From: an uncultured Acetobacteraceae bacterium
Lineage (GTDB): Bacteria; Pseudomonadota; Alphaproteobacteria; Acetobacterales; Acetobacteraceae
Length of the DNA: 49,797 bases
Assembly: GCA_937873095.1 (NCBI GenBank)
Contig: CALMVI010000024.1
Coordinates: forward strand, 1 to 49,797
Reading direction: 5' to 3'
The translations under genes and the position numbers were made by a program. The notes beneath the pieces were generated by a model that saw nothing but the letters and a program-made list of their open reading frames with translations, ran no database searches and was not told the origin of the DNA. Of the stretch, positions 1,725 through 29,759 are shown piece by piece; position 1 is the stretch's first letter, and each line of letters opens with the position of its first letter.

Positions 1725-3169
1725 GCGATCCCGACCCGACATCCTCCGCGTCCACGCCGCCGGTGATCGAGCACGAGCCCCAGCCCGCGCCTGCGCCCCC
1801 GCTCGCGCCCCCGCTCGCGCCAGCGCGGCGTCGCGGCGGCACGCCGCTGCCGCTGACGCTGCTGCTGGCGGCAGGGCTCGGCGGCGGCCTGTACTGGGTG
1901 TGGGCGCACCCGCAGGGTGCCGGGCCGGCCGCGCCTGGCGAACCCCAGGCAACGGTCGAGGCGGCGCGCGCCCAGATCATGGCATCGGTGCAGGCGCAGA
2001 CCCAGCCGCTCGGACAGCAGCTCGCAGCGCTGTCGGCCAGGGTCGACGCGCTGGAGAAGCAGGCCGCCCATCCTGCCGAGACGCCGCCTGCCGCCCCGGC
2101 CCCGGCCCCGGGCGTCAGCCAGGATGCGTTTGCGGACGCGTCGAAGAAGCTCGACGACCTGTCCGGCCGCGTGGACGCGCTGTCGGCCAAGCAGGACGCG
2201 CAGGCCGCCGAGCTGCAAAAGACGCGCGAGATAGCCGCCCAAAAGACGCCCGAGCCAGCGCCCGAGCCGGCGCAAGCGACCGCCCCGCCGCCGCCCGACA
2301 CCACCGCCGCCCAGGTTCCCGCCATCATCGCGGGGCAGCAGGCGGCCGATCAGGCCATCGCCCAGCAGAAGGCCGCGTCCGAGCAAGCCGTCGCCGAGCA
2401 GAAATCGGCGCTCGGCGGGCTGGAACAGCGCCTGGCCAAGCTCGAGGCGGCGTCCGGCCAGGCCGAGGCGGCGATCAAGCAGCAGCAGGCCTCGCAGCAG
2501 GGGCAGACCCAGCTCGGCGCGCATCTCGACACGCTCGACGCACGGCTGCAGAAGCTGGAGCAGGCGGCGGGCCAGGCGCAGTCGCAAACGGCGGAGGCGG
2601 ACAAGGCGTCCGCCCAGGGAGCGGCGGAGGCAAGGACGCAGATCGACGCGCTGACCGCCCGCGTCGCCAGGCTGGAGAGCGGGGAAGGCCAGGTGCAGGG
2701 CGCCGCCCGGAACGCCAGCCGCGCCATCCGCATCGAGGCCGCGGAGGCGGCACTCGCCTCGGGCCAGCCGCTCGGCGCGCTGCCGGACGCGCCGCCGGCG
2801 CTCGCGCGGTTCGCCACAGTGGCGCCGCCGACCGAAGCCGGTCTGCGCGCCGCCTTCCCCCAGGTGGCAGACGCGGCGCGCGCCGCCAGCCAGCCGGACG
2901 TCTCGCAACGCTCCTTCCTCGACCGCGCCCTGGCGCGCGTGCAGCAGAGCGTGACCGTGCGCCCCGGCGACCGCGTGCTGGTGGGCGACCCCGCAGCCGG
3001 CGTCCTGGCCCGCGCGCAGGACGCGCTGGACGCGGGCGACCTCAAGCGGGCTGCCGACATCCTGGGCGGGCTGAACGGTCCCGCCGCCGCCGCCGCGAGC
3101 GGCTGGGTCGCGCAGGCCCGCTCGCTGGTGGAGGCGCGCGCCGCCCTGGCCGCCATGGCGCGCGGCTGA
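1721..3169 (+). CDS. Mitofilin-like inner-membrane coiled-coil protein
   Basis: The protein has 482 residues. It begins with a Pro/Ala-rich cytoplasmic tail, followed by one membrane segment at about residues 43-62. A long Ala/Gln/Lys-rich region of predicted coiled coil fills roughly 80-330, and the C-terminal domain of about 120 residues is helical. Alphaproteobacteria typically carry such a mitofilin (Mic60-related) gene between hemD and hemY, which is exactly its position here. The family is linked to inner-membrane shaping in mitochondria; its bacterial role is less certain. The ATG at 1721 was chosen because it overlaps the hemD stop; an in-frame ATG at 1664 would lie well inside hemD. 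Confidence 0.85.
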   Translation: MSDPDPTSSASTPPVIEHEPQPAPAPPLAPPLAPARRRGGTPLPLTLLLAAGLGGGLYWVWAHPQGAGPAAPGEPQATVEAARAQIMASVQAQTQPLGQQLAALSARVDALEKQAAHPAETPPAAPAPAPGVSQDAFADASKKLDDLSGRVDALSAKQDAQAAELQKTREIAAQKTPEPAPEPAQATAPPPPDTTAAQVPAIIAGQQAADQAIAQQKAASEQAVAEQKSALGGLEQRLAKLEAASGQAEAAIKQQQASQQGQTQLGAHLDTLDARLQKLEQAAGQAQSQTAEADKASAQGAAEARTQIDALTARVARLESGEGQVQGAARNASRAIRIEAAEAALASGQPLGALPDAPPALARFATVAPPTEAGLRAAFPQVADAARAASQPDVSQRSFLDRALARVQQSVTVRPGDRVLVGDPAAGVLARAQDALDAGDLKRAADILGGLNGPAAAAASGWVAQARSLVEARAALAAMARG

Positions 3170-4479
3170 TGCGCACCATCCTGCTGATCATCGTCCTGGC
3201 AGCCGCCGCAGTCGGCGCGGGCTGGTGGGTGCAGCACCTGACCGGCGCGGTGTCGATGACGGTCGGCCAGACCGTGATCCAGATGCCGCTCTCGGTCGCC
3301 GTGCTGGCGCTTATCCTGCTGGTGGCGCTGGTCTACGTGCTGTTCCGGCTGGCGGCGACCGTGTTCAGCCTGCCCGGCGCGTTCCGCCGCGGCGGCGAGC
3401 GGCGGCAGCGCCGGCGTGGCGACGCGGCAGTGACGAACACCCTGCTCGCTTTGGCGGCACGCGAACCCGCCGACGCGCGGCGCGAGGCGGCGCGCGCCAC
3501 CCGCCTGCTCGGCGAGACGCCGCAGACGCTGCTGCTGCGCGCCTATGCCGGCAGCATCTCGGGCGACGAGGCGGAAGCGGAGGCGGCCTTCGAGAAGCTG
3601 GCCGAACGCCGCGATGCGGCGTTCCTCGGCCTGCGCGGCCTGCTCCGCCTGGCCATCGAGCGCGAGGATTTCCCGCGCGCCGCCGTGCTGGCGCGGGAGG
3701 CCGAGGCGGCCCATCCCGGCGCCGCCTGGCTGCGCGGCGAGCGCATGCAGCTGGCGCTGCGCACCGGGGCCTGGTCCGAGGCCTTGCAACTGAGCCACGA
3801 CGACACGCCGAAGGCCGGGTTCGGCGCGGCGGCCGCCGATGCCGAGGCGGACCCCGCGCTCGCGCACAAGCTCGCCAAGCAGGCGTGGAAGCGCGACCCG
3901 TCGCTGCCGCCAGCGACCATCGCCTATGCCCGCCGCCTGCGCGAGGGCGGGCGCGAGAAGGCCGCGTTCGACGTGCTGCGGCGCGGCTGGACCGCGGCGC
4001 CGCATCCCGACATCGCCGAGTTCGCCCTGCGCACCGCGCCGGACAAGCTGACCCGCCAGAAACTCGGCGCCGAGCTGGTGCGCGGCGCGCCGGACCACGC
4101 CGAAAGCCATCTGCTGCTGTCGCGCCTGGCGCTGGATGCCGGGCAGCCGGACGAGGCGCGGCGCCACCTCGACGCGGCGCGCGCGGCCGGGCTCGACCAG
4201 CGGCGTGTCCACCTGCTGGATGCCGACATCGCCGAGGCTGCCGAAGACGAGCCCGGCCAGCGCGACGCGCTGCGCCACGCCGCCATGGCCGGCCCCGACC
4301 CCGCCTGGCGGTGCGAGGCGTGCGGCACCGCGCTCGGCGGCTGGCATCCCGCCTGCCCGGCCTGCCACGCCGTCGGCCGCGTGCGCTGGGGCGTGCCCGA
4401 AGCCGGCTTTCCGGCCCCCGTCGCCCGCATCGGCGCCCCTGCCGCGCCCGCGCTCGACGGCCGGGCCGAGCTGTATTGA
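3169..4479 (+). CDS. hemY: HemY-type TPR membrane protein with C-terminal metal-binding ribbon
   Basis: The protein has 436 residues. Two membrane segments (about 3-19 and 42-66) are followed by a helical TPR-rich region, the pattern of the HemY N-terminal family. This is not the protoporphyrinogen oxidase that shares the name. Near the C-terminus lie four cysteines in a C-x2-C-x10-C-x2-C arrangement (about 382, 385, 396, 399), like the rubredoxin-type ribbon of LapB, so a bound metal is likely. The start ATG shares one base with the upstream stop (TGATG). The exact biochemical role of this family in heme metabolism is unsettled; placement after hemD is conserved. Confidence 0.88.
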   Translation: MRTILLIIVLAAAAVGAGWWVQHLTGAVSMTVGQTVIQMPLSVAVLALILLVALVYVLFRLAATVFSLPGAFRRGGERRQRRRGDAAVTNTLLALAAREPADARREAARATRLLGETPQTLLLRAYAGSISGDEAEAEAAFEKLAERRDAAFLGLRGLLRLAIEREDFPRAAVLAREAEAAHPGAAWLRGERMQLALRTGAWSEALQLSHDDTPKAGFGAAAADAEADPALAHKLAKQAWKRDPSLPPATIAYARRLREGGREKAAFDVLRRGWTAAPHPDIAEFALRTAPDKLTRQKLGAELVRGAPDHAESHLLLSRLALDAGQPDEARRHLDAARAAGLDQRRVHLLDADIAEAAEDEPGQRDALRHAAMAGPDPAWRCEACGTALGGWHPACPACHAVGRVRWGVPEAGFPAPVARIGAPAAPALDGRAELY

Positions 4480-4495: not shown

Positions 4496-5938
4496 ATGGG
4501 GTATAGCCGTCCGATGATTCCCCTGGTGCTGGACCTGGACGGAACGGCCGCCTGCACCGACACGCTGGCCGAGACCGCGATCCGCCTGCTGGCGACCCGC
4601 CCGTTCGCCTTCCTGGCCATGCTGCCCAGGGCGCTCGGCGACCGGGCCGCGTTCAAGCGCGACATGGCGGCTGCGTCCCCGCTCGACCCCTCCACCCTGG
4701 TCTATGACGACCAGGTGCTGGACCTCGCGCGCCAGGCGCAAACCGACCGGCGGCCCGTCTACCTGGCCACCGCGGCCGACAGGAGCGTCGCCGACAGCGT
4801 GTCGCGCCACCTTGGCGTGTTCGACGGCGTGTTCGCCTCCGACGGCCTGGTGAACCTGAAAGGGGAGGCCAAGGCCCGGCTGCTGGTCGAGCGGTTCGGC
4901 GCGGGCGGGTTCGACTATGCGGGCGACTCGGCGGCCGACCTGCCGGTCTGGCGGTCGGCGCGGCGCGGCTACGTGGTCGCGCCGTCCTCAGGGTTGCGCC
5001 AGGCGGCCGGCGCGGTGTGCGCGGACGTCCGGGCGATCGGCCGGCCCGCCTCCTGGCTGCAGACCGCCCGGCTGCTGGCGCGCGCGACCAGGCTGCACCA
5101 ATGGGCCAAGAACCTGCTGGTGTTCGTGCCCTTGCTGGCGGCGCATGCCTCGGCCGGCGGCCTGTTCGGGCAGGCGTGCCTGGCGTTTCTCGCCTTCTCC
5201 GCCTGCGCCTCCAGCGTCTACGTGCTCAACGACCTGGTCGACCTGCCGCATGACCGCCTGCATGCGACCAAGCGGCGGCGTCCGTTCGCCAGCGGCGCCC
5301 TGAACCTGGCCTGGGCGCCAGGCCTGACCGCCGGCCTGCTCGGGCTGTCGATGCTGCTGTGCCTGGGGCTGCCCTGGCGGTTCGCGGCCATGCTGGCGCT
5401 GTACTACGGCTGCACGCTGGCCTACTCGCTCGTGCTCAAGCGGCGGATGGTCTGGGACGTGATGACGCTTGCCGGGCTGTACACGCTGCGCATCTTCGCC
5501 GGCGGTGCTGCCACCGGCATCACGCTGTCGCCCTGGCTGCTGGCGTTCTCGCTGTTCCTGTTCTTCTGCCTGGCCGTGGTCAAGCGGCTGACCGAGCTGA
5601 CCCGGCTGGTGCAGCGCGCAGCACCCGCCGCGCCGATCGCCGGCCGCGGCTACGCGCCGGACGACCTCGACATGCTGCGCAGCATGGCCGCGTCCTCCGG
5701 TACGATGGCGGTGCTGGTGCTGGCGCTCTACGTCAACAGCGCCGAGGTGGCATCGCTCTACCAGCGGCCGGCGGCGCTGTGGGCGCTGTGCCCCATCCTG
5801 CTGTTCTGGGTCAGCCGCGTGCTGATGCTGGCCAATCGCGGGCTGATGAACGAGGACCCGGTGGTGTTCGCGCTGCGCGACCGTGTCAGCCTGGCGGCCG
5901 GTGCGGCGAGCCTGGCCGCCATCCTGGCCGCCACGTGA
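4496..5938 (+). CDS. HAD-UbiA fusion: decaprenyl-phosphate phosphoribosyltransferase-like prenyltransferase
   Basis: This two-domain protein has 480 residues. Residues 1 to about 190 are a HAD-type phosphatase domain with the nucleophile motif DLDGT (about 13-17) and a late GDSAADLP motif. The remainder is a UbiA-family polytopic prenyltransferase with the Asp motif NDLVDLPHD and the YSLVLKRRMVWDVMTLAG segment. Relatives include Mycobacterium Rv3806c, which makes decaprenyl-phosphoryl-5-phosphoribose; a fused HAD domain would suit removal of the 5-phosphate (inference). It sits 16 nt after hemY and overlaps the next gene by 4 nt (GTGA). An ATG at 4514 is an alternative start. A role in quinone or heme prenylation is less likely given the neighbours. 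Confidence 0.85.
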   Translation: MGYSRPMIPLVLDLDGTAACTDTLAETAIRLLATRPFAFLAMLPRALGDRAAFKRDMAAASPLDPSTLVYDDQVLDLARQAQTDRRPVYLATAADRSVADSVSRHLGVFDGVFASDGLVNLKGEAKARLLVERFGAGGFDYAGDSAADLPVWRSARRGYVVAPSSGLRQAAGAVCADVRAIGRPASWLQTARLLARATRLHQWAKNLLVFVPLLAAHASAGGLFGQACLAFLAFSACASSVYVLNDLVDLPHDRLHATKRRRPFASGALNLAWAPGLTAGLLGLSMLLCLGLPWRFAAMLALYYGCTLAYSLVLKRRMVWDVMTLAGLYTLRIFAGGAATGITLSPWLLAFSLFLFFCLAVVKRLTELTRLVQRAAPAAPIAGRGYAPDDLDMLRSMAASSGTMAVLVLALYVNSAEVASLYQRPAALWALCPILLFWVSRVLMLANRGLMNEDPVVFALRDRVSLAAGAASLAAILAAT

Positions 5939-7272
5939 CCCCTGCGCTCGAGATGCTGACCGGCTGGGGCAGGGCGCGCCGGTCGCCCAGCGTGACCTGG
6001 CGCGCCGCCAGCCCGGAGGATGCCGCCGCGGCCCTGGCGCAGACGCCGCGCGCCCACGGGCTGATCGCCCATGCCGGCGGCCGGTCGTACGGCGATTGCG
6101 CCCTGAACGGACAGGGCGCGGCGCTGCTGACCGGGCGGCTGGACCGCATTCTCGGGTTCGACCCCGACACCGGCATCCTGCAGGCCGAGCCGGGCGTCAC
6201 CTTCGCCCAGCTCATGGACACGCTGCTGCCGCAGGGTTTCATGGTTCCGGTCACGCCCGGCACCAGCTTCGCCACCCTCGGCGGCGCTGTCGCCAACGAC
6301 GTTCACGGCAAGAATCACGAGGCCGCGGGCAGCTTCTGCCGCCACGTGACGGAGCTGGACCTTCTCGCGCCCGACGGCGCGCTGCACACGGTCGGCCCCG
6401 AGCGGGATGCCGAGCTGTTCTGGGCCACGGCAGGCGGGCTGGGGCTGACGGGGGTGATCACCCGGGTCGCGCTGCGCATGCGACGCGTCCCGTCCAACGC
6501 GCTGGCGGTGCGCCGGCAGCGCTTGCCCGACCTGGACGCGTTTTTGGGCGCGATCGACGCGGCGCACGGCGCCACCTACGCCGTCGGCTGGATCGACGGT
6601 GTGGCGCGCGGGCGTGGGCTCGGCCGGGGCATATTGGAAACCGCCGAGCCCGCGCCCGACGCGCTGCCGGAGCGGGCGTTGCGGCGGCTGCGCGTGCCGT
6701 TCGACCTGCCGAACCTGGCGCTGAACCCGCTCAGCATACGCCTGTTCAACGCGGCGTATTTCCGCTCCGCCCCTGCCCGCGGCCGTTCGTCGCCGGCGGG
6801 CGCCCGAACATTCTTCTACCCGCTCGACGCCGTCATCGGCTGGAACCGCATCTACGGCCGGCGCGGCTTCCACCAGTTCCAGAACGTGGTGCCGTTCGAC
6901 CGCGGACCGGAAGCGCTGGCGGCACTGCTCGAGGTCATCGCCGCGTCCGGCCGGGCCTCGTTCCTCGCGGTGCTCAAGCGCATGGGTGCCGCCGGTCCGG
7001 GCCACCTGTCGTTTCCCCGGCCGGGCTACACCCTGGCGCTCGACTTCCCGGCCGGTCCCGGCATCGAGGAGCTGTACGCGGCGCTGGTGGCGATCACGCT
7101 GCGCTACGGCGGCCGCGTCTACCTGGCCAAGGACGCGCTGCTGACGGCCGACGCGTTCAGGGCGATGTATCCGCGCTGGCATGAGTTCCGGGCGGTGCTC
7201 GACAGGGTCGATCCCGGCCGGCGGCTGCAATCGGACATGTCGAGGCGGCTGCGGCTGAGGGAGCCCGCGTGA
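5935..7272 (+). CDS. FAD-binding oxidase, DprE1-like (decaprenylphosphoryl-ribose oxidase family)
   Basis: The protein has 445 residues. The N-terminal FAD-binding domain of the vanillyl-alcohol-oxidase/PCMH fold contains AHAGGRSYGDCALNG, TPGTSFATLGGAVANDVHGK and the HGKNHEAAGSF motif characteristic of DprE1. The C-terminal substrate domain carries RPGYTLALDF and VYLAKDALL, where DprE1 has its catalytic Lys. DprE1 oxidises the 2-OH of decaprenyl-phosphoryl-ribose on the way to the arabinose form. The GTG start at 5935 overlaps the stop of the HAD-UbiA gene; an ATG at 5953 is the alternative. The DprE2 reductase that would complete epimerisation is not adjacent. Confidence 0.85.
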   Translation: MTPALEMLTGWGRARRSPSVTWRAASPEDAAAALAQTPRAHGLIAHAGGRSYGDCALNGQGAALLTGRLDRILGFDPDTGILQAEPGVTFAQLMDTLLPQGFMVPVTPGTSFATLGGAVANDVHGKNHEAAGSFCRHVTELDLLAPDGALHTVGPERDAELFWATAGGLGLTGVITRVALRMRRVPSNALAVRRQRLPDLDAFLGAIDAAHGATYAVGWIDGVARGRGLGRGILETAEPAPDALPERALRRLRVPFDLPNLALNPLSIRLFNAAYFRSAPARGRSSPAGARTFFYPLDAVIGWNRIYGRRGFHQFQNVVPFDRGPEALAALLEVIAASGRASFLAVLKRMGAAGPGHLSFPRPGYTLALDFPAGPGIEELYAALVAITLRYGGRVYLAKDALLTADAFRAMYPRWHEFRAVLDRVDPGRRLQSDMSRRLRLREPA

Positions 7273-8447
7273 GGCCTGTGTGCCTGGCGCTCATGGCGGG
7301 CTGCATGATCCTCGGCTGGTATGTCTACGCCGTCCTGTTCCGCACCACCCCTGGCCAGGACTGGATGGTATTCGACACCGCGGGCAAGGCTTACCTGCGC
7401 GGCGATACCGGGCTGCTGCTGGACGGGCAGCGCTTCACGGCGGTGCTGAACGCCACCCATGGCTGGCTGGCCGAGCCACTGCGCTTCCATCCCTGGATCT
7501 ACCCGCCCTACACGCTGCTGCTGGCGCTGCCCTTCGCCCTGCTGCCGTGGTGGGCGAGCTACGGGGTGTTCCAGGCGGCCAGTTTCGCGGGCCTGGTCGC
7601 CTCGCTGTCGCTCTGGGCGCGCGGCACGGACAGAGTGCTGCTGATCGCGGGCGTCGCCTGCTGCGCCGCCACCGCCTTCACGCTGGGCTCGGGACAGAAC
7701 AGTTTCCTGAGCGCGGGCCTGGTGACGGCGGGGATCGCCCTGATGGACCGCCGGCCGCGTGCGGCGGGCGTGCTGCTGGGACTGCTGTGCTTCAAGCCGC
7801 AGCTGGCGTTCCTGGTCCCACTGGCGCTGGCAGCGGCAGGGGCGTGGCGGGCGCTCGCCGCTGCGGCGGCGACAGTGTGCGCGCTGCTCGGCCTGAGCCT
7901 GATCGCCCCCGGCATCGGCCTCTGGCGCGCCTGGCTGCACCTGATCCTGGGCGGGGACCCGGCTTTCCATGCCTGGGTCGAACAGGGCCGGCTCTACGGC
8001 CAGAGCGTGTTCGCCTGCGCCCGCCTGGCGGGGCTGTCCGGCCAAGCGGCGGCCGTGGCCCAGGCGGTTGCCGTGCTCTGCGGCGCGCTCTGCGTGGCGG
8101 CCGCCTTCCGCCTGTGCTCCCGCGCCGACCGGCTGGCCGTGCTGCTGCTGTCGATGGTGCTGGCAGCGCCGCATGTCGGCACCTACGACGCCGTCCTGCT
8201 GGGCGAGGCGTCGACGATGGTCCTGCTGGGGCTCGGCGAGTCGCAGCCGGGCGTGGGGGAGGCTGCGCTGGCGGTGGCCGTGTGGTGCTCGCTGAGCTTC
8301 CAGCCGCCCTTCGTCCTGCGCGCGGCCGTGGCGACGCCGTTGCTGGTCCTGGCGCTGGCCGTGTCGGTCGTCCGGCGGGCGGCGCAGGCCGCGCCAGGCG
8401 GCCCGCGTGCCAGCCTCACCCCGAAGTTACCGCGGCAGCCGGTTTAG
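7269..8447 (+). CDS. GT87-like (DUF2029) polytopic glycosyltransferase
   Basis: The protein has 392 residues and about ten hydrophobic segments. The DWMVFDTAGKAYLRGDTG loop after the first membrane helix, the YPPYTLLLALPFALLP stretch and the GQNSFLSAGL region with LLCFKPQLAFLVP resemble the GT87/DUF2029 family of GT-C enzymes, which use polyprenyl-phosphate sugars. The first conserved Asp in the DWMVFD loop is the expected catalytic or donor-binding residue (family knowledge). The GTG start overlaps the stop of the DprE1-like gene by 4 nt, so the three genes are likely co-translated. The donor is probably the product of the two upstream enzymes; the acceptor is unknown. Confidence 0.75.
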   Translation: MRPVCLALMAGCMILGWYVYAVLFRTTPGQDWMVFDTAGKAYLRGDTGLLLDGQRFTAVLNATHGWLAEPLRFHPWIYPPYTLLLALPFALLPWWASYGVFQAASFAGLVASLSLWARGTDRVLLIAGVACCAATAFTLGSGQNSFLSAGLVTAGIALMDRRPRAAGVLLGLLCFKPQLAFLVPLALAAAGAWRALAAAAATVCALLGLSLIAPGIGLWRAWLHLILGGDPAFHAWVEQGRLYGQSVFACARLAGLSGQAAAVAQAVAVLCGALCVAAAFRLCSRADRLAVLLLSMVLAAPHVGTYDAVLLGEASTMVLLGLGESQPGVGEAALAVAVWCSLSFQPPFVLRAAVATPLLVLALAVSVVRRAAQAAPGGPRASLTPKLPRQPV

Positions 8448-8504: not shown

Positions 8505-9164
8505 ATGCGTCAGCTTTTCGCGCCGGGTGCCGATGCCGTCCTTCGTCTTGCGCTGCTGACGGTTTCCGTCGGCGCGATCCTTCTGCTGGTGGTCGTCGGC
8601 GCCGTCGCCAATTCCGACTACATCTCGGGCGTGGGCATCGCGCCGCGCCAGCCTGTGCCGTTCAGCCACAAGCATCACAGCGGCGAGCTCGGCATCGACT
8701 GCCGCTATTGCCACACCAGCGTGGAGGTTGCAGCGACTGCGGGCATGCCGCCGACCCATACCTGCATGACGTGCCACAGCCAGATCTGGACCGGCGCGCC
8801 GATGCTGGCGCCGGTGCGCGACAGCCTGGCCAACGACGACCCTCTGCACTGGACGCGGGTCAACCACATCCCGTCCTACGTCTATTTCAACCACTCGGTG
8901 CACGTGACCAAGGGGATCGGCTGTTCGAGCTGCCACGGTGCGATGGACCACATGCAGATGACGCTGCGGGTGCAGTCGTTCCACATGGAGTTCTGCCTGC
9001 AGTGCCACCGCCACCCCGAGGAGCACGTGCGCACGCCTGACCAGGTGTGGAACATGGATTGGGGCGCGCCGCCCGACCAGGCGGTGCGCGGCCCGGCGCT
9101 GGTCGCCAAGTACCACATACGCAACGCCGCCCAGCTGACGGATTGCTCGATATGCCACCGCTAG
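8505..9164 (+). CDS. actA: Alternative complex III, pentaheme cytochrome c subunit ActA
   Basis: The protein has 219 residues. One N-terminal membrane anchor (about 12-35) precedes a periplasmic domain with exactly five CxxCH heme motifs: CRYCH, CMTCH, CSSCH, CLQCH and CSICH. Additional His residues for axial ligation occur in HKHH and HSVH. This matches ActA, the pentaheme subunit of alternative complex III, a quinol:electron-acceptor oxidoreductase that replaces the bc1 complex. The last CxxCH lies at the extreme C-terminus and overlaps the next gene by 13 nt. It is the first gene of a long plus-strand cluster, 57 nt after the preceding stop. Confidence 0.93.
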   Translation: MRQLFAPGADAVLRLALLTVSVGAILLLVVVGAVANSDYISGVGIAPRQPVPFSHKHHSGELGIDCRYCHTSVEVAATAGMPPTHTCMTCHSQIWTGAPMLAPVRDSLANDDPLHWTRVNHIPSYVYFNHSVHVTKGIGCSSCHGAMDHMQMTLRVQSFHMEFCLQCHRHPEEHVRTPDQVWNMDWGAPPDQAVRGPALVAKYHIRNAAQLTDCSICHR

Positions 9165-12061
9165 GTTTCGTCGCCCGCGACGCGAGCGGCCAGTGGCGGC
9201 GCGCGGCCGAAGGCGACCCGGCGGCGCTGGCCTTGATCCGTGAGAGATACCCGGCGGCGGCCGACCTGCTGCGCACGCCCGACCGTCGGCAGTTCATGCG
9301 GCTGATGGCGGCCTCTCTCGCGCTGTCCGGCCTGGCCGGCTGCGATGACGATACGCGCGACGAGATCGTGCCGCCGGTCAACCAGGCCGAGGGGTCGGCG
9401 CCCGGGTCGGTGCTGACCTATGCCTCCTCCGCCCTGGTGGACGGGTTCGCCAACGGCGTGCTGGTCAAGTCGCGCGACGGGCGCCCGATCAAGATAGAGG
9501 GCAACCCCGGCCACCCCTGGAGCCGCGGCGGAACAGACGTGTTCGGCCAGGCCAGCGTGCTGGGGCTGTACGATCCGTTCCGCTCGCAATCGGTGCAGTT
9601 CGACACGCGCGAGAGCGACTGGGCGGCGTTCCGGGCGGCGCTGGCGGGACCGCTCGGCCAGTGGCGCGCCAGCGGCGGGCAGGGCGTCGCGATCCTGCTG
9701 GGGCCGAGCACGTCGCCCTCGCTTGCCGCCCAGCTCGCGGCGTTGCAGCGGGCCTGGCCGCAGCTGCGGCTCTACGTGCACGTGCCGGCGACCCGGGCGG
9801 CGCTCTACGAGGGCACGCGGCAGGCGTTCGGCCGGCCGCTCGAGACGCATTGGCGGCTGTCTGGCGCGCGAGCCATCGTCAGCCTGGATGGCGACCTGCT
9901 CGATCCTGGGCCGCAGCAGGTGGGTGCGGCGCGTGAGTGGGCCGATGCGCGCCACGCCCAGGCGGCGGCCGACGGCCTGCTCGAGATGTGGGCCGCGGGG
10001 CCGGTCCCCAGCCTGACCCTGGCCAAGGCCGACCATCCGCTTGCGGCCTCGCCTGCGGTGGTATCGGCGATGGCGCAGTGGCTGCTGGCGCGCGCCGACG
10101 GACGCGCCGGCCAGGCGCTGCCGCCCGACGCCCGGCGCTGGTGCGAGGCGGCGTGGCGCGCGCTGGACGGCGCCCGCGGCAGTGCCGCCGTGATGGCAGG
10201 GCTGCACGCCGCGGCCGATGTGCAGGCGGCGGTGCAGCGGCTGAACGCGTCGCTGGGCAATGCCGGCCGCACGGTGCTGCACACCGCCCCGCTGCTGCAG
10301 CAGGCGCCCGACCTGGCCGCGCTGGCGTCGGACATGGCGGCGGGGCAGGTGCAGGCGCTGCTGATGCTCGGCGTCAACCCGGTCTACGACGCGCCATGCG
10401 ACCTGGATTTCGCGGCCAGGCTCTCGCGCGTGAAGCTGAAGATCCATGCCGGGCTGTACGCCGACGAGACGGCGCTGAACGTGGACTGGCACCTGCCCAC
10501 CACGCATCCGCTCGAATGCTGGGGCGACGCCTACGCCCTGGACGGCACGGCGTGCCTGGTCCAGCCGACGATCCGGCCGCTGTACGACGGCCGGTCGCTG
10601 CCGGAGATCGTCTCGCTCCTGGCCGATGCCGAGCCGCGCAACGGGCTCGACCTGCTGCGCGCGCACTGGCTGGGACCGGACGCGACGCCCGCGGCCGAGC
10701 AACGGTGGAAGCAGGCGCTGCTGTCGGGCGTGTTCGAGGACGGGCGTTCGCCTCTCGTCACGGTGCAGGCGACCGCTGCGCCGGCCGCAGCACCCGGTCC
10801 GGCGGCTGGCGGTCCGACTCTGGTGTTCCGGCCCGACCCCACGGTCTGGGACGGGTTCGGCGCCGACAATGCGTGGCTGCAGGAACTGCCCAAGCCGATC
10901 AGCAAGGTGGTGTGGGAGAACGTGGTCGGCATCGGTCCGGCACTCGCCGCGCGCGAGCATCTTGCGACCGGCGACGTGGTGCGGCTGGAGGCCGGCGGCA
11001 GGACCATCGAGGGACCGGTCTGGGTGTATGGCGCCCAGGCCGACGGCGTGGTCAGCGTGACTCTGGGCTACGGCCGCAGCGTGGCCGGGCAGCTTTCGGC
11101 AGGGCTCGGCTACAACGCCTACGCGCTGCGCCGGTCCGACGCGCCCTGGGACGGCGGGACAGTCACCCTGCACCGCACGGGCGAGCATCGCACCATGGCC
11201 AGCACGCAGGACCACACCACCATGGAAGGCCATGATTTCGTGCGCGTGCAGCATCTGGGCGCAGCGCCGGTGGGCGACGGCGCCTACCGCCCGCCGACCC
11301 TGTACCCCGACCACCAGTCCGACGGCCGCGCCTGGGGCATGGTGATCGACCTGGACACCTGCATAGGCTGCAACGCCTGCGTCACCGCGTGCCAGTCGGA
11401 AAACAACATCGCCGTCGTCGGCCGCGACGAAGTGCTGCGCGGCCGGGAGATGCATTGGCTGCGCGTCGACATCTACCAGTCCACGGCCGCGGCGCAGGAC
11501 GCCGCCCCGGCCGAGGCGGGCAGTCTGGCGCCCGCGCACTTCATGCCGGTGCCCTGCATGCATTGCGAGCAGGCGCCCTGCGAGGTCGGCTGCCCGGTGG
11601 AGGCGACTCTGCACGACCATGAAGGCCTGAACCTGATGGTCTATAACCGCTGCATCGGCACGCGCGCCTGTTCGGGCTACTGCCCGTACAAGGTGCGGCG
11701 CTTCAACTACGCCGACTACTCCGCCGGCGCGGCGCCCTCGATCGTGGAGCAGCGCAACCCCGACGTGTCGGTGCGGGCCCGCGGGGTGATGGAGAAGTGC
11801 ACCTACTGCGTCCAGCGCATCGCCGAGGCGCGCGCCGCCTCCGACCGCGACTACACGCCGATCCAGGATGGCGGCGTGCGCACCGCCTGCCAGGATGCCT
11901 GTCCGACGCGCGCCATCACCTTCGGCGACCTTGCCTTGCCGGGCAGCGAGGTTGCGCGTGCGCATGAGGACCCGAGGCGCTACGCTCTGCTGGGCGAGCT
12001 GAACACGCGGCCGCGCACCACCTACCTCGCGGCGCGCGCGCCCGCAGCGGGAGACAGCTGA
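9152..12061 (+). CDS. actB: Alternative complex III, iron-sulfur/molybdopterin-like subunit ActB
   Basis: The protein has 969 residues. It opens with a Tat-like RRQFMR motif (about 45-50) and the hydrophobic stretch ending LSGLAGC, a possible lipobox. A large molybdopterin-oxidoreductase-like domain spans about 70-700; in the ACIII family this part lacks the Mo cofactor. The C-terminal ferredoxin-like domain (from about 725) has four Cys clusters: CIGCNACVTACQ, CMHCEQAPCEVGCP, CIGTRACSGYCPYKVRRFN, and CTYCVQR with CQDACPTR. These would hold three 4Fe4S and one 3Fe4S centres. The start at 9152 overlaps actA; frame continuity and family N-terminus support it. Confidence 0.93.
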   Translation: MPPLGFVARDASGQWRRAAEGDPAALALIRERYPAAADLLRTPDRRQFMRLMAASLALSGLAGCDDDTRDEIVPPVNQAEGSAPGSVLTYASSALVDGFANGVLVKSRDGRPIKIEGNPGHPWSRGGTDVFGQASVLGLYDPFRSQSVQFDTRESDWAAFRAALAGPLGQWRASGGQGVAILLGPSTSPSLAAQLAALQRAWPQLRLYVHVPATRAALYEGTRQAFGRPLETHWRLSGARAIVSLDGDLLDPGPQQVGAAREWADARHAQAAADGLLEMWAAGPVPSLTLAKADHPLAASPAVVSAMAQWLLARADGRAGQALPPDARRWCEAAWRALDGARGSAAVMAGLHAAADVQAAVQRLNASLGNAGRTVLHTAPLLQQAPDLAALASDMAAGQVQALLMLGVNPVYDAPCDLDFAARLSRVKLKIHAGLYADETALNVDWHLPTTHPLECWGDAYALDGTACLVQPTIRPLYDGRSLPEIVSLLADAEPRNGLDLLRAHWLGPDATPAAEQRWKQALLSGVFEDGRSPLVTVQATAAPAAAPGPAAGGPTLVFRPDPTVWDGFGADNAWLQELPKPISKVVWENVVGIGPALAAREHLATGDVVRLEAGGRTIEGPVWVYGAQADGVVSVTLGYGRSVAGQLSAGLGYNAYALRRSDAPWDGGTVTLHRTGEHRTMASTQDHTTMEGHDFVRVQHLGAAPVGDGAYRPPTLYPDHQSDGRAWGMVIDLDTCIGCNACVTACQSENNIAVVGRDEVLRGREMHWLRVDIYQSTAAAQDAAPAEAGSLAPAHFMPVPCMHCEQAPCEVGCPVEATLHDHEGLNLMVYNRCIGTRACSGYCPYKVRRFNYADYSAGAAPSIVEQRNPDVSVRARGVMEKCTYCVQRIAEARAASDRDYTPIQDGGVRTACQDACPTRAITFGDLALPGSEVARAHEDPRRYALLGELNTRPRTTYLAARAPAAGDS

Positions 12062-12063
12062 GC

Positions 12064-14022
12064 ATGCCGTCCGGCGCATCCGAAACCGTCTCGCCGTTCC
12101 TGGGCGCGGGCCAGACCTATGACAGCATAGGCAGCACGCTCGCCGGCATCCCGCTCAGCGCACGCGGCTGGAGCCGCTGGTGGATCGCGATGGCGGCCGC
12201 GGTGGCGCTGACCGGGGTGCTCGTCGTCTCGCTCGGCGTGCTGTTCTACGAAGGTGTCGCGATCTGGGGCAACAACATCCCCGTCACCTGGGCGCTCGAC
12301 ATCGTCAGCTACGATTGGTGGATCGGCATCGCCTGCGGCGGCCTGCTGGTGAGCGGCGTGTTCCTGCTGCTCGACGTCGCCTGGCGCAGCGCGCTGAACC
12401 GGATCAGCGAGACGATGGCCCTGCTCGCTGCGGCAGCGGCGGCGGTGTACCCGATCATCCATCTCGGGCGGCCCTGGTTCTTCTACTGGAACCTGCCCTA
12501 CCCGAACAGCTTCGCCCTGTGGCCGCAGTTCCGCAGCCCGCTGTTCTGGGACGCGTTCGACATCCTGAGCTTCCTGGGCCTGGCGGCAGGGGTGTTCTAC
12601 GTGGGGTTGCTGCCCGACCTGGCGACGCTTCGCGACCGGGCCTGGGAGCGATCGAAGGATGACGGCCGGCCGGACGGCATCGACTGGCCGCTGCTGCGGG
12701 CGCAGCTCTACGGCATCGCGGCACTCGGGTGGCGCGGTTCGGCGGTGCACTGGCACCGCTGGGTGCAGGCCTATCGCACGCTGGCACTGCTCGGGGTCGT
12801 GACCGTCGTCGCCCTGCAGGTCGGCGCATCGGTGATGTTCGCCGGCACCTCCGAACCCGGCTGGCACGACACGCTGCTGCCCGTCACCTACCTGGCCGGC
12901 GCGGTCCTGTCCGGGGTCGGCATGCTGTGCGTGCTGACCGTGGTGCTGCGCCACGCCTTCCACCTCGAGACGCTGATCACCGAGCGGCACGTGCAACGCC
13001 TCGCTCTGGTGCTTCTGGGCCTGGCCCTGGTCAACATCTACTGCGAGACCACGACCGGTTTCGTGGGCGCGCTCAGCGGCGATTCGTTCGAGCACGCGGC
13101 CCAGCTGCGACGCGTGGCGGGGCCTGCGGCGTGGAGCTTCTGGATGCTGGTGACCGCCGGCCTGCTGCCGCCGCTGCTGTTCGCCATCCCCAGGCTGCGC
13201 GCCTCCCCGGCTGTGCTGGCCTGGGTCGGCGGTGCGGCCGCCGCAGGCATTTGGGGCGACCACTACGCGCTGATCGTGGGCAGCCTGCAGCACGATTTCC
13301 TGCCGTCCGCGGCGCATGGCAGCCGGATCACCGTGTTCGAGTGGAGCACGTTTGCCGGCTCCGCCGGGCTGTTCCTGCTGCTGCTGCTGCTGTTCCTGCG
13401 CGCGCTGCCCATCGTGTCGATGATGGAGAGCCGGCAGCTGGCGACCCGCACCGGCGCGGGGCCGGAGCCTGCGAGGCCGGGCGCCGGCCACCGCGCGCCG
13501 ATCTGGGGGGTTGCGGCCGAGTTCGCGACCGAAGCCGACATGGCCTACGCGGCAGCGTCGCTGCGGTCGGGGTGCAGGCTGCGGGTGGACGCGTATTCGC
13601 CGGTGCCGAGCCCGACGACCGCGGCAGCGCTCGGCCTGCACAGCCATTCGATCCGCGGTTTCGCCCTGGGGGGGTTCGTGCTGGGCGCTGGCGGCACGTT
13701 CGGCGTGTGCACCTACGCCACCGTGCACGATTACGTCTTCAACATCGGCGGCCGGCCGGATTTCAGCTGGCAGTCCTTCGTGGTGCCCAGCCTTTCGTTC
13801 GGCTCGCTGGTGGCCGGCATGGGCGTCGTGGGCGCCATGCTGGTGTTCAACCGGCTGCCGCGCCTGAACCACCCGGCGTTCAACATCCCGGGCATCGCGC
13901 GCGCCTCGGCCGACCGCTTCTTCGTGGCGGCCCACGGCATGGGCGAGGAGTTCGACCTGAAGCCCGCCGAGACGATACTGTCGGCGCTGCCCGCCCTGTC
14001 CGTGCACCAGGTTCCGCGATGA
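12064..14022 (+). CDS. actC: Alternative complex III, fused ActC (NrfD-like) and ActD subunits
   Basis: The protein has 652 residues and reads as one uninterrupted frame. Residues 1 to about 460 form an NrfD/PsrC-like quinone-interacting membrane domain with about ten helices, matching ActC (GIACGGLLVSGVFLL, LGRPWFFYWNLPYPN, ETTTGF). From about 481 (AEFATEADMAYAAASLRSG) to the end it matches ActD: a cytoplasmic domain, then two membrane helices around FALGGFVLGAGGTFGV and VVPSLSFGSLVAGMGVV, then an amphipathic tail. actC and actD are usually separate genes in described ACIII clusters. It starts 2 nt after actB and overlaps actE through ATGA. Confidence 0.92.
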   Translation: MPSGASETVSPFLGAGQTYDSIGSTLAGIPLSARGWSRWWIAMAAAVALTGVLVVSLGVLFYEGVAIWGNNIPVTWALDIVSYDWWIGIACGGLLVSGVFLLLDVAWRSALNRISETMALLAAAAAAVYPIIHLGRPWFFYWNLPYPNSFALWPQFRSPLFWDAFDILSFLGLAAGVFYVGLLPDLATLRDRAWERSKDDGRPDGIDWPLLRAQLYGIAALGWRGSAVHWHRWVQAYRTLALLGVVTVVALQVGASVMFAGTSEPGWHDTLLPVTYLAGAVLSGVGMLCVLTVVLRHAFHLETLITERHVQRLALVLLGLALVNIYCETTTGFVGALSGDSFEHAAQLRRVAGPAAWSFWMLVTAGLLPPLLFAIPRLRASPAVLAWVGGAAAAGIWGDHYALIVGSLQHDFLPSAAHGSRITVFEWSTFAGSAGLFLLLLLLFLRALPIVSMMESRQLATRTGAGPEPARPGAGHRAPIWGVAAEFATEADMAYAAASLRSGCRLRVDAYSPVPSPTTAAALGLHSHSIRGFALGGFVLGAGGTFGVCTYATVHDYVFNIGGRPDFSWQSFVVPSLSFGSLVAGMGVVGAMLVFNRLPRLNHPAFNIPGIARASADRFFVAAHGMGEEFDLKPAETILSALPALSVHQVPR

Positions 14023-14582
14023 GCGCGCCCCACCTTGCCGGGGCCTGTGCCGCCCTGGCGCTGCTGGCGGCGCTCGGCGCCTGCAAGCGCGAGGACATGT
14101 ACACGCAGCGCGAGATACGCCCGTGGGACCGCGACGACACGGCTGCCAACTCGTCCAGCATGCGGCCGCCGGTGGCGGGCACGCTGGCCCGCGAGCAGCC
14201 CGACGCGCCGGTGCCGCCGCCGCGCATCATCGACGCCGTGCTGATCGAACGCGGCCAGGCGCGCTACGACATCTTCTGCACCCCCTGCCACGCCGACAGC
14301 GGAGACGGCGAGGGCATGATCGTGCAGCGCGGCTTCCCGCATCCGCCGAGCTTGCATTCCGAGCGCCTGCGCCACGCCCGCGCCCAGGTGTTCTACGACG
14401 CGATCACCTACGGGCACGGCGCCATGTACAGCTACGCGGCGCGCGTGCCGCCGCCGGACCGCTGGGCCATCGCCGCCTACATCCGTGCGCTGCAGTTCAG
14501 CCAGGCAGCGCCCGTCGCCAGCCTGTCCCCGGAGGACCGCGACCGCCTGGCGCAGGCTCCCGTCATGGAGGGTGCGCGGTGA
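14019..14582 (+). CDS. actE: Alternative complex III, monoheme cytochrome c subunit ActE
   Basis: The protein has 187 residues. A lipoprotein-type signal ends LAALGAC (about 16-22), so a lipid-anchored periplasmic protein is likely. A single CTPCH heme motif lies near residue 87, with candidate distal Met residues further on in GEGMIVQRG and GHGAMYSY. The [10 protein letters not shown] region before the heme is typical of ActE. It probably receives electrons from ActA/ActB and hands them to the oxidase. The ATG start overlaps the ActC-ActD stop, and its own stop overlaps the next GTG start, so the cluster is translationally linked. Confidence 0.9.
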
Positions 14583-15607
14583 GGCGGCTTGCCTGGGCAG
14601 GCGCGCTGGTGCTGGTGCTGATCTACGCAGCGGCGGCGCTGCTGGGCAGGCCGATCATGGCGTCCTACCTCGCGGCCTGGCTGTTCTGCCTGTCCGTGCC
14701 GGTGGGCGCGCTTCCCGTCGTGTGCGGGCTGGAACTGGCCGGGCTGGGCGGCTCGCTGCACACCGGTTACCTGCGCTGGCTGCTGCTGCTGATGCCGGTG
14801 GCGGCGCTGGCCGGGCTGCCGGTGCTGTTCTTCCTGCCCTCGCTCTACCCCTGGGTGTCGCACCCGTTGCACGGCTTTGCCGGGGCATGGTGGAGCCCGG
14901 TGCCGTTCGCCGTCAGGAGCGTGGCCTACCTGGCGGTGTGGACCGTGCTCGCACTGCTCAGCGCCCAGCCGCCGCAGGCCAATACCAGGCCGCCGCAGGC
15001 CAATACCAGGCCGCCGCAGGCCGCGGCCCGGGCGGGGCTGTGCTGCGCCGGGCTGGTGCTGCACGTGGCGGTGGGCACCCTGGCCGCGACCGACTGGATC
15101 ATGTCGCTGACGCCGGGCTTGAACGCGGCCGGCTTCGGCCTGCTGGTGCTGGCTGGACAGTCCGCCCTGGCGCTGGGCGCGGGTGTGCTGCTGGTGCCGG
15201 CGCGGCCCGCCGGTGCTGCGCCGTGGCTGGTGACGGCCATGGTGGCGTGGGGTGCGATGCAGTTCACCCAGTACCTCATCATCTGGTCGGCCAATCAGCC
15301 TGGGGAGATCGCCTGGTACATCCAGCGCGGCGGCGCGCTCGGCGACGCGGCGTCCTGGGCGGGTGCTGCGGTCCTTCTGCTGTGCGTGGCGCTGCTCGGC
15401 CCCGCCTGGCTGGCCGGACGCCGCTTCGTGCTGGCGGGATGCGGGGCGGCGGTGGTTCTGGTGCAGATGGCCGCGACGCTGTGGCTGGTCACGCCCAGCA
15501 TACGCGGCCGTTTCACGCTGGCTCTGCCCGACCTCGCCGTGCCTGTGGCGGCGCTGCTGTTCGCCGCCCTGGCCTGGTCGCTGCGGCCCCGCGCGGTGCC
15601 GGCATGA
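14579..15607 (+). CDS. actF: Alternative complex III, membrane subunit ActF
   Basis: The protein has 342 residues and about ten hydrophobic helices. Family-like segments include FLPSLYPWV, ATDWIMSLTP, QFTQYLIIWSANQPGEIAWY and a C-terminal helix pair. ActF is the second NrfD-like membrane subunit of ACIII and is thought to shape a proton-translocation path. The loop at about 130-150 contains a heptad PPQANTR repeated in tandem, encoded by 21-bp DNA repeats, which is not a conserved family feature. The GTG start shares GTGA with the actE stop. The stop overlaps the next gene by 4 nt. Confidence 0.88.
   Translation: MRRLAWAGALVLVLIYAAAALLGRPIMASYLAAWLFCLSVPVGALPVVCGLELAGLGGSLHTGYLRWLLLLMPVAALAGLPVLFFLPSLYPWVSHPLHGFAGAWWSPVPFAVRSVAYLAVWTVLALLSAQPPQANTRPPQANTRPPQAAARAGLCCAGLVLHVAVGTLAATDWIMSLTPGLNAAGFGLLVLAGQSALALGAGVLLVPARPAGAAPWLVTAMVAWGAMQFTQYLIIWSANQPGEIAWYIQRGGALGDAASWAGAAVLLLCVALLGPAWLAGRRFVLAGCGAAVVLVQMAATLWLVTPSIRGRFTLALPDLAVPVAALLFAALAWSLRPRAVPA
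14966..15028 (+). repeat. 21-bp tandem repeat inside actF
   Basis: Three consecutive copies of a 21-bp unit containing GCCGCCGCAGGCCAATACC; the first two are nearly identical and the third diverges at its 3' end. The unit is a multiple of three, so it only lengthens a Pro/Gln loop (PPQANTR twice, then PPQAAAR) between membrane helices of ActF. It is read directly from the sequence. Copy number may vary between strains through slippage. Confidence 0.9.
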
Positions 15608-16161
15608 CCGCGCCGCGGCGGCGCGCCGGGATACTCGAGTTTTTCATCGGCGCTGCGGCGGCGCTGGGCGGGGCGCGGCTGTTTGCATCCCGCGCCGGCA
15701 AGGCGAACGACCCGTTCGACGAGCGCGCCGGACGCGGCGCGCCGGGCGACGAACCGAGCGCTGCCGCCGTTTCGGCCGGGCACGAGCCGGCCGACGCCGA
15801 CGCGCGCGACATCTTCCGCACGATGGCGATCTTTGGCGGTGTGGCGCTGACCTCGGTCGCTCTGATGGCGGCGCTGCTGCACGGGCTGCACCGGGCGGAC
15901 GCCGCGCGCGAGGCGGGGCTGACCCAGATACAGCGCATCCACGTGACACCGCCCGAGCCCAACCTGCAGCCCGACCCGGTGGGCGACATCGCCCGGTTGC
16001 GCAGGCACGAGTACCAGCTGCTGCACAGTTTCGCCCGCATCGACGCCGGCACGGCCAGGATACCGATCGACCGCGCCATCGCCCTGATGGCCGGCCAGAC
16101 GCTGGACCGGCCGGACACGCAGGGTGACGGGCGACAGCCGACCAGGGGAGACGGGCGTTGA
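15604..16161 (+). CDS. Membrane-anchored protein of unknown function in the ACIII/oxidase cluster
   Basis: The protein has 185 residues. The N-terminus has a short hydrophobic stretch (LEFFIGAAAALGGARLF), followed by a charged Asp/Ala-rich linker. A clear membrane segment lies at about 78-97 and a soluble C-terminal part follows. The C-terminal motif ARIPIDRAIALMA is recalled from small proteins encoded beside cytochrome oxidases and ACIII in other bacteria, so an accessory or assembly role is plausible. It has no heme motif and no copper-binding CxxxC pair, so it is not a Sco protein. It starts on the last bases of actF (ATGA) and ends just before cytochrome oxidase subunit II. Function is not known. 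Confidence 0.75.
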   Translation: MTAPRRRAGILEFFIGAAAALGGARLFASRAGKANDPFDERAGRGAPGDEPSAAAVSAGHEPADADARDIFRTMAIFGGVALTSVALMAALLHGLHRADAAREAGLTQIQRIHVTPPEPNLQPDPVGDIARLRRHEYQLLHSFARIDAGTARIPIDRAIALMAGQTLDRPDTQGDGRQPTRGDGR

Positions 16162-16189
16162 GCGGAGACGGGTTGAGCGGAGAAGTGCG

Positions 16190-17149
16190 TTGAGCGTTTC
16201 GGGGAGCCCGGCCGAACACGCGCTCGCGCTGTGGCCGCCGGCCGCGAGCCATGCGGCCACCCATGTCGACTACCTGATCCTGGCGTTCACCGCGGTCACG
16301 CTTCTGCTGACGGTGCCGATCTTCCTGGCGATCACGTATTTCGCGCTGGTCTATCGCGCGAACCGGCGCGTCGATCGAACACACGGCTCAGACCGGAACG
16401 TGAAGCTCGAACTCTCCTGGATGCTGATCCCGTTCTTCCTGACCCTCACGTTCTTCGCCTGGGGCGCCCAGATGTTCGACACGGCCAAGCACCCGCCGGC
16501 CAACGCGCTGCGCATCGAGGCGATCGGGCGGCAGTGGATGTGGAAGTTCCAGCATCCCGGAGGACAGGCGGAGATCAACGACCTGCACGTGCCGGCGGGG
16601 CAGCCGGTGCTGGTCAACATGATCAGCCAGGACGTGATCCACTCGCTCTACCTGCCCTCGTTCCGTGTGCAGATGGAAACCCTGCCCGGACGCTACACCC
16701 AGCTCTGGTTCACCGCCAACCTTCCGGGCATCTACCGCTTGTACTGCTCGGAGTACTGCGGAACCGACCATTCGGTGATGGACGGCCAGATCACCGTGCA
16801 GAGCCCCCGCGACTACGAGCATTGGCTGAGCCAGGCGGGGTCGAGCCAGTCGCTCGCCGCCGGCGGCAAGCGGCTGTTCGCCAATTACGGCTGCACCGGC
16901 TGCCATGGTGCCGCGGCGACAGTGCGCGCGCCGATGCTGGCCGGGCTGTACGGGCGCCCGGTGCCGATGGAGGCCGGCGGCACGGTGACCGCCAGCGACG
17001 ACTACATCCGCGACAAGATCCTGAACCCGGACCACAACCTGATTGCCGGCTACAAGCAGGTCATGCCGAGTTTCGCGGGCGTGATCCCAGAAGACGAGCT
17101 GATCCAGCTGATCGCCTACATCAAGACCATGCAGGAGCCAGGATCATGA
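16190..17149 (+). CDS. ctaC: Cytochrome c oxidase subunit II with fused cytochrome c domain (caa3 type)
   Basis: The protein has 319 residues from the TTG at 16190. Two membrane helices (about 26-56 and 75-95) precede a cupredoxin domain with the CuA ligands His151, Cys186, Glu188, Cys190, His194 and Met197 ([18 protein letters not shown]). A cytochrome c domain follows with CTGCH at about 235-239 and a likely distal Met near 292 (QVMPSF). The fused heme makes this a caa3-type enzyme that can accept electrons directly from ACIII. The start is uncertain: the TTG has GGAGA 6-7 nt upstream, while an ATG at 16124 would overlap the preceding gene by 38 nt. Confidence 0.93.
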
Positions 17150-18798: not shown

Positions 18799-19450
18799 TG
18801 CCGTGACCGCGGAGGCGGTGGACATCGAACTCGCCGAGCAGTTCGTCACCAAGGAGCAGCAGCGCGACGTGGGCACGCTGGGCATGTGGGCCTGGCTGGT
18901 CACCGAGTTGCTGCTGTTCGCCGGGCTGTTCCTGTGCGCGCTGATCCTGCGCATCCAGTTCCCGGCCGACGTCACGCTGGCGACGACGCATCTGAAGTTC
19001 TGGATCGGCGCCACCAACACCGCCGTGCTGATCTGTTCCAGCCTGACGATGTCCGGCGCGATCGTGCTGTCCCGCCTCGGCTGGCGGCGCGGGATGCTCG
19101 GCTGCATGCTGGCCACCGCTTGTCTCGGCACGCTGTTCCTGGTGCTGAAAGGCTACGAGTACTACCAGGATTACGACGAGAACATGATGCCGTTCCTGGC
19201 GCGGCCCTACGCGCTCGGCGCGCATCCGTCCACGCGGCTGTTCCTCGACATCTACTACGTGACCACTGGGCTGCACGGCGTGCATCTGATCACCGGCGTG
19301 TCGATATTGCTGGTGCTGACATGGCAGGCGAGCAGGCCGCGGTTCCTGCAGATGCACCAGAACCGGATCGAAATCTACGGCCTGTACTGGCATTTCATCG
19401 ATCTGATCTGGATCATCGTGTTCCCCGTGCTCTACGTGCTGAACCGATGA
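18791..19450 (+). CDS. ctaE: Cytochrome c oxidase subunit III
   Basis: The protein has 219 residues and five membrane helices, the shorter form common in caa3-type oxidases. Family segments include [20 protein letters not shown] near the N-terminus, [17 protein letters not shown] in the middle, and [11 protein letters not shown] and [17 protein letters not shown] towards the end. Subunit III stabilises the oxidase and its proton uptake. The GTG at 18791 overlaps the subunit I stop; a GTG at 18803 is also possible. The stop overlaps the start of subunit IV (ATGA). Confidence 0.93.
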
Positions 19451-29708: not shown

Positions 29709-29717
29709 CAGGCAAGC

Positions 29718-29741: not shown

Positions 29742-29759
29742 AAAAAACTTTTGTTCATT

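Follow-up and report, generated by a model that had tools for sequence, protein, structure and literature searches.

A DprE1-like oxidase without a detectable DprE2 partner, encoded between a HAD-UbiA fusion and a GT87 glycosyltransferase in Acetobacteraceae: a candidate lipid-linked pentofuranose module

The stretch of DNA analysed here (the window, 49,797 nucleotides) is an entire contig of a 3.69 Mb Acetobacteraceae draft genome (G000, 99.79% complete), and at positions 4496-8447 it carries three genes, all intact open frames in one overlapping run, that form a candidate module for a lipid-linked pentofuranose pathway. The first gene (4496..5938, +, with an alternative in-frame ATG start at 4514) encodes a predicted fusion of a HAD phosphatase and a UbiA-type phosphoribosyltransferase (HAD-UbiA), the second (5935..7272, +, beginning at a GTG at 5935 or at an in-frame ATG at 5953) a DprE1-like flavin adenine dinucleotide (FAD) oxidase, and the third (7269..8447, +) a GT87-type polytopic glycosyltransferase of the predicted GT-C class. 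The genes are joined by two GTGA overlaps (5935-5938 and 7269-7272), which were read in the sequence, and both the coordinates and the joints agree with a preliminary description of this locus. Between positions 4000 and 9000, no promoters were found, and two terminator-like sites were detected against 1.6 expected.

The HAD-UbiA protein matched PRK08238 'UbiA family prenyltransferase' (NCBIfam NF006088) over residues 6-480 (profile positions 10-480 of 482) with 593 bits, compared with a cut-off of 351, while Pfam matched UbiA (2.6e-18) and gave no separate HAD match. The predicted HAD domain (about 4511-5047, +) is assigned from the PRK08238 match, the DxDGT motif (HAD loop I, DLDGT, 4532..4546, +, with D8 and D10 in the numbering of the 4511-5935 translation) and the structural model. 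This AlphaFold2 model, computed from a 17-sequence alignment, had a mean pLDDT (predicted local distance difference test) of 93. Its residues 1-179 resembled SerB-type HAD phosphatases (Z 13-15) and the uncharacterised protein 3fvv (Z 17.0), and residues 185-475, within the UbiA-type domain (about 5063-5935, +), were superposed on mycobacterial Rv3806c (8j8j_A) with Z 27.9, 281 aligned residues and 30% identity, archaeal UbiA enzymes giving lower values for the same part (Z 20-22). Rv3806c also matched the protein among the PDB sequences (E 1.4e-22), and the model indicates that the UbiA half shares the Rv3806c fold, although the NCBIfam equivalog cut-offs for decaprenyl-phosphate phosphoribosyltransferases of this type were missed (142 vs 234, 140 vs 207 and 106 vs 474 bits).

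Residues N240, D241, D244, D248, R359 and E362 did not vary in any of the 28 rows of alignment A2 or the 17 rows of alignment A4, in which D8 and D10 of the HAD domain were invariant as well; the first four form the presumptive phosphoribosyl pyrophosphate (PRPP)/Mg site at 5228..5254 (+). Their spacing equals that of N247, D248, D251, D255, R366 and E369 in ORF15 of Citrobacter youngae. Membranes with wild-type ORF15 are reported to convert PRPP to farnesyl-P-ribofuranose in vitro; mutants of the four N/D residues lose this activity, R366A and E369A retain some, and the HAD mutant D18A leaves the 5-phosphate form together with some residual dephosphorylated product (PMC11127046). The wild-type and D18A results give the reading of the HAD half as a phosphatase a direct precedent. 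The preliminary description had proposed an Rv3806c-like UbiA enzyme whose fused HAD covers the phosphatase step, and both points hold on the matches, model, motifs and ORF15 precedent given above. Overall, the predicted donor-making part of the module is well supported by its Rv3806c-like model, its catalytic motifs and the Citrobacter HAD-UbiA precedent.

The second protein matched DprE1 in the PDB over residues 5-441 (E 2e-82), and Pfam assigned FAD_binding_4 (4e-21) and ALO (1.2e-8). The HGKN motif (H124-N127; 6304..6315, +), already noted in the preliminary description of a DprE1-like oxidase, aligned with mycobacterial H132-N135 and was the same in all 18 rows of alignment A1, as were Y52, R305, Q316, K348 and K399, which correspond by alignment to mycobacterial Y60, R325, Q336, K367 and K418, respectively; we take these to be FAD and substrate residues that matter in DprE1. 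Between the window and the congeneric genome G128, the ratio of nonsynonymous to synonymous substitution rates (dN/dS) of the DprE1-like gene was 0.23, compared with 0.19 for a DprE1 pair accompanied by DprE2 and with 0.20 for HemY, 0.15 for HemC, 0.24 for GT87 and 0.40 for HAD-UbiA (N part). The gene is under purifying selection in the window's genus and is not decaying. As a side observation, the position of mycobacterial Cys387 is occupied by Ala368 (encoded in the 6304-7272 stretch of the window), and this Ala is almost fully conserved among the 18 sequences of the family.

The third protein exceeded the Pfam GT87 gathering cut-off (104 vs 25 bits, E 1.4e-29); no NCBIfam match was found at E up to 0.001, and a profile of six GT87 rows found nothing significant among the PDB sequences (best E 0.11). 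Asp31 (7359..7361, +), a candidate catalytic base just past the first membrane helix, was invariant together with K176 and H302 in six of six rows of alignment A3, in which the L207 row is incomplete by the coordinates chosen. These residues recall, by pattern only and not by alignment, D58, K195 and H321/H322 of PimE, whose donor is polyprenyl-phosphomannose (PMC12041525). A role of this GT87 as a pentose transferase is plausible. Four genomes (G000:C130:44658-48009, also L208; G128:C93; G145:C135; G080:C54) also contain arrays in which three to four GT87 homologues, with 32-36% identity to the protein of the window, follow one another, one G000 copy having a TGA inside its match.

Among 150 genomes of the family, which was recognised as Acetobacteraceae or a neighbour of it by named relatives such as Belnapia, Dankookia and Paeniroseomonas, 37 contained HAD-UbiA at 1e-30. 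These 37 and G049, whose contig begins inside DprE1, made up 38 genomes tested for DprE1; the DprE1-like gene was present in 19, and the other 19 held HAD-UbiA without it. Of the 19 genomes with DprE1, 18 have the two genes in one locus, and the remaining one (G049) is cut by the contig end. Upstream of the module lies a HemY-like gene (3169..4479, +; a label that we assume from gene order), the last of a hemC-hemD-mitofilin-hemY run whose order is conserved in loci L039, L043 and L045 and whose HemC, HemD and mitofilin were identified by Pfam. Downstream lies an ActA-like multihaem cytochrome gene (8505..9164, +; Pfam Cytochrome_C7; the Act name is presumed), the first of a respiratory run, which also follows GT87 in L039 and L057. 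The hemC-to-actB order, with the module between hemY and actA, was complete in both the window and G128, and the GTGA overlap of DprE1 and GT87 was present in the window and G049. The DprE1-GT87-ActA order is not a matter of chance, as each of the three species sampled from the genus (window, G128 and G049) has it. The hem side is common also to G080 and G043, which suggests that the module already resided next to the hem genes when GT87 or DprE2 was gained or lost; GT87 occupies the slot held by DprE2 in relatives, and elsewhere HAD-UbiA and DprE1 have other neighbour genes. A seemingly broken HAD-UbiA in G128 was discounted, as the assembly carries two N just where the gene breaks and no mutation is demonstrated.

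DprE1, a mycobacterial drug target, is regarded as obligatorily paired with DprE2. DprE2 was scored with NF053786 (equivalog cut-off 250) and with a profile built from 11 family neighbours, on which the scores of those 11 are partly circular. In 12 of the 19 DprE1-bearing family genomes, a DprE2-like short-chain dehydrogenase/reductase (SDR) of 120-201 bits on NF053786 lay directly beside DprE1; none of the 12 reached the 250-bit cut-off, and several of those scanned passed PRK07102. The other seven lacked such a gene, namely the three sampled species of the window's genus (G000, G128 and G049, with best SDRs of 58.7, 94.6 and 90.6 bits, respectively) and G043, G114, G067 and G057 (63.5, 82.7, 76.8 and 67.1 bits, respectively), and fell within the background of 60.9-96.6 bits given by the best SDRs of 19 genomes without DprE1. 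Some of the seven are incomplete (G114 87%, G049 85%, G128 89%). The NF053786 survey scored only 52 candidates in large genomes, including G067 (of 70) and G057 (of 73); later, all candidates were scored in G067, and 75 of 75 in G057 with another query, the DprE2-like protein of G080.

In the window's whole draft genome, where all 32 first-look candidates were scored, no DprE2-type SDR was found (best 58.7 bits on NF053786), and the G080 protein as a query gave at best 47.3 bits, compared with 531 in G080 and 401 in G145. The absence that the preliminary description had reported for the window is thus extended to the genome by the search that it had proposed. The window SDRs at 19804 and 22520, which it had considered poor partners, scored 57.8 and 36.4 bits on the built profile, where ordinary SDRs elsewhere gave 65-107, and the former is PRK07109 (340 bits). 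The best SDRs of G128 and G049 were also rejected, having PRK07024 and PRK07825 as their closest NCBIfam matches and 97 and 99 bits on the built profile, respectively; that of G128 adjoins a very large gene, polyketide synthase-like by eye only. No SDR match at the level of these two was found in the window's genome.

Across bacteria, a DprE2-like gene lay within 6 kb of DprE1 at 75, 73 and 71 of 80 loci at thresholds of 80, 110 and 140 bits, respectively, the 80 loci being the best 80 of at least 588 and overlapping the family set, and the 80-bit threshold sitting under the ordinary SDR scores of 97-107 bits. Where more than 3 kb was available on both sides (54 loci), it was linked in 51, 50 and 50, respectively. 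Four weaker matches were fragments, three near contig ends (L125, L126 and L167) and one not (L165). The search does detect unlinked copies, since three of the five loci without a linked gene (L156, L164 and L181) have DprE2 elsewhere in the genome at 206-290 bits; it showed no DprE2 in the genomes of L200, a Rhodoblastus metagenome-assembled genome, and L182. A missing reductase is therefore unusual beside DprE1. In a tree of 45 DprE1 sequences, built by a quick method with support from the Shimodaira-Hasegawa-like approximate likelihood ratio test only, the DprE2-less family sequences occupied two places, one with the DprE2-bearing G145 and G080 (support 100) and one around the DprE2-bearing G059 and G130 (93), so that repeated loss, or repeated gain, is needed. 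The L200 sequence sat apart, and the position of G043 inside the first clade was not resolved. No alignment column separated the DprE2-less DprE1s as a group, four columns differing in part.

Drawing on the observed proteins, folds, motifs, conserved gene order, DprE1 selection and lack of a detectable DprE2, we consider it probable that the module belongs to a lipid-linked pentofuranose pathway with a non-DprE2 reductase elsewhere and GT87 as the likely transferase. By analogy with the published HAD-UbiA, polyprenyl-P-ribofuranose would arise when the HAD half strips the 5-phosphate. Oxidation of its 2-hydroxyl by the DprE1-like enzyme would produce a 2-keto sugar, which a reductase that does not belong to the DprE2 family and is encoded at another site would most likely convert to the arabino form (arabinofuranose). 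Once an unlinked flippase had moved this lipid through the membrane, its pentofuranose would be handed over at the periplasmic side to an envelope acceptor by a GT-C enzyme, for which the neighbouring GT87 is the likeliest candidate in this genus. The type of pathway is already known, since PMC11127046 describes such pathways and names DprE1/E2 homologues in candidate arabinofuranose systems.

The three-component system of Citrobacter youngae O1/O2 comprises ORF15 (HAD-UbiA), ORF14 (a MATE flippase) and ORF12 (GT136) (PMC11127046). The window shares with it the N-terminal HAD fused to a UbiA-type phosphoribosyltransferase, the equal spacing of catalytic motifs and a predicted GT-C partner; it differs in that GT87 takes the place of GT136, the module contains no flippase, and a DprE1-like enzyme is present without DprE2. 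With the mycobacterial decaprenyl-phosphoryl-arabinose pathway (Rv3806c, Rv3807c, DprE1 and DprE2) it has in common the Rv3806c-like fold and the DprE1-like enzyme, whereas its phosphatase is the fused HAD instead of the unrelated Rv3807c, DprE2 was not found in the genome, and the NCBIfam cut-offs for DprE1 and decaprenyl-P phosphoribosyltransferase are missed. The preliminary description had also pointed to Nod-factor arabinosylation in Azorhizobium, and the noeCHOP and noeCNHOP operons of Azorhizobium and Rhizobium IRBG74 do likewise place mycobacterial-type donor genes and one transferase gene together (PMC2443382, PMC5080398); the parallel is limited, because those papers assign noeC, noeH and noeO to three of the four steps of donor synthesis, a fuller donor set, and the acceptor is a Nod factor, as judged from published descriptions. 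The closest loci are the clusters of G145 (L042) and G080 (L043), of which the latter shares the hem context, with DprE1 60-63% identical to that of the window, but unlike the window both retain DprE2 and an LPG_synthase_TM/TIGR00374 gene. The third protein falls in Pfam GT87 by its score and, like PimE, has an Asp after the first helix; the mannosyl lipid used by PimE differs from the pentosyl donor proposed here.

Several results weigh against this pentofuranose pathway. The DprE1 equivalog NF053785 was matched over positions 4-449 of 449 with 421.4 bits, below its cut-off of 500, for which reason the protein is named DprE1-like. An arabinose end product would be left without its second enzyme, because no DprE2-like gene was found genome-wide. 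There is no flippase gene in the module between the flanking hemY and actA, MATE genes elsewhere in the genome not having been searched for. For GT87, the single-sequence structural model (pLDDT 44.5) was too poor to use. Moreover, GT87s of at least 45% identity are absent from 14 of the 19 DprE1-bearing genomes, the orthologues of G145 and G043 are unlinked (the former comes after a gene that by eye is lpxC, behind a mur-fts run, and the latter lies in another unrelated place), and the next GT87s, those of G086, G027 and G034 (39-43%), belong to genomes without HAD-UbiA at 1e-30.

These GT87 results favour the view that HAD-UbiA and the DprE1-like enzyme serve a different, unlinked transferase, and that the adjacent GT87 takes its sugar from a hexosyl-phosphate lipid, in the manner of its characterised relative PimE with polyprenyl-phosphomannose (PMC12041525); the other neighbours of HAD-UbiA and DprE1 in other genomes point the same way. 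We regard this as unlikely, though not negligible, given the GT87/DprE1 overlap and the linkage in the three sampled species of the genus. In addition, the five closest orthologues in the 150 genomes (window, G128 67%, G049 66%, G145 58% and G043 48%) all come from genomes that carry DprE1 together with HAD-UbiA or its locus, while a GT87 from G055 (40%) comes from a genome with HAD-UbiA and without DprE1. GT87 is thus tied to the module by its position in a single genus and by its co-occurrence in two others, and is not a general partner; the pentose transferase role put forward in the preliminary description is plausible, with linkage in the window's genus only. Taken as a whole, that interpretation is partly supported.

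The end product raises two further alternatives. DprE1 alone could make the final donor, either polyprenyl-P-2-keto-pentofuranose or, with the hydride returned to the other face, polyprenyl-arabinofuranose. The seven family genomes with SDRs at background level, their spread over two separate parts of the tree, the constraint still acting on DprE1 and the similar case of L200 are all consistent with such independence. Its active-site residues nevertheless look like those of an ordinary DprE1, with no residue setting the DprE2-less group apart; SDRs are many, so that one may have taken over, and the few candidates per genome are not excludable by sequence; and some of the seven genomes are incomplete. 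We therefore find a one-enzyme route rather improbable, and the fuller proposal, in which several family lineages use a 2-keto-pentofuranosyl lipid as donor or a redox-neutral one-enzyme epimerase and GT87 is a dedicated transferase in the genus, is a shade more doubtful still. Plain polyprenyl-P-ribofuranose as the donor, as in Citrobacter O1, with the oxidase acting in another pathway, appears very unlikely: HAD-UbiA without DprE1 in 19 of 38 genomes implies that ribose alone is a normal end point, but the DprE1-like gene overlaps HAD-UbiA here, retains the DprE1 motifs and neighbours HAD-UbiA in every DprE1-bearing family genome whose locus is not cut.

Other genes near HAD-UbiA were observed in the family. 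An LPG_synthase_TM/TIGR00374 'flippase-like' gene lies between HAD-UbiA and DprE1 in the DprE2-bearing G080 (L043:6910-7893, -) and G145 (L042:2396-3340, -) and is a candidate flippase for pentosyl lipids; it had no match in the window's genome, and GtrA was rejected as a module partner, its three copies being unlinked with no tie to the module. Small EamA-like transporter genes, another candidate flippase type, lie beside HAD-UbiA in DprE1-less genomes (L053:7450-7821, -, with a match below the Pfam cut-off; L055:7596-7958, -; L060:5670-6071, +). Members of the second DprE2-less group carry a related gene of 337-377 aa immediately 5' of HAD-UbiA (L048:4726-5838, -, without a Pfam match; L052:9398-10411, -; L059:7238-8371, -).

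The genus has a recurrent A/T-rich palindromic intergenic repeat of about 34 nt, which in G128 occupies the hemY/HAD-UbiA, HAD-UbiA/DprE1 and GT87/actA gaps. Its coordinates are 7305-7341, 9897-9931, 9984-10018 and 11478-11511 in L039 and 5523-5544 in L057; the window has one copy with one mismatch (29719-29752, -), none being expected by chance. The respiratory run of the window (8505-19737, +) is long and, besides the ActA-like cytochrome, contains by eye an alternative complex III and a haem-copper oxidase. At 26496-31980 (-), a DnaE-type polymerase (Pfam) follows two genes, presumptively named ImuA and ImuB, that resemble a mutasome pair; Pfam matched nothing in the first of them (31207-31980), and the DnaE2 name is likewise presumed.

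The open-licence literature that was searched contained nothing joining Acetobacteraceae, lipopolysaccharide and arabinofuranose, or DprE1, Alphaproteobacteria and arabinose; GT87 did not occur there together with polyprenyl, and the phrase 'without dpre2' had zero occurrences among the matches listed. If the reductase is an ordinary unlinked SDR, the module would differ only modestly from a pathway published in 2024. A constrained DprE1-like gene without a DprE2-type gene would test the independence of DprE1 or the existence of a substitute reductase, and GT87 would join those GT-C families for which pentofuranosyl lipids are suspected donors. A 2-keto-pentofuranosyl donor, if true, would represent an undescribed envelope sugar.

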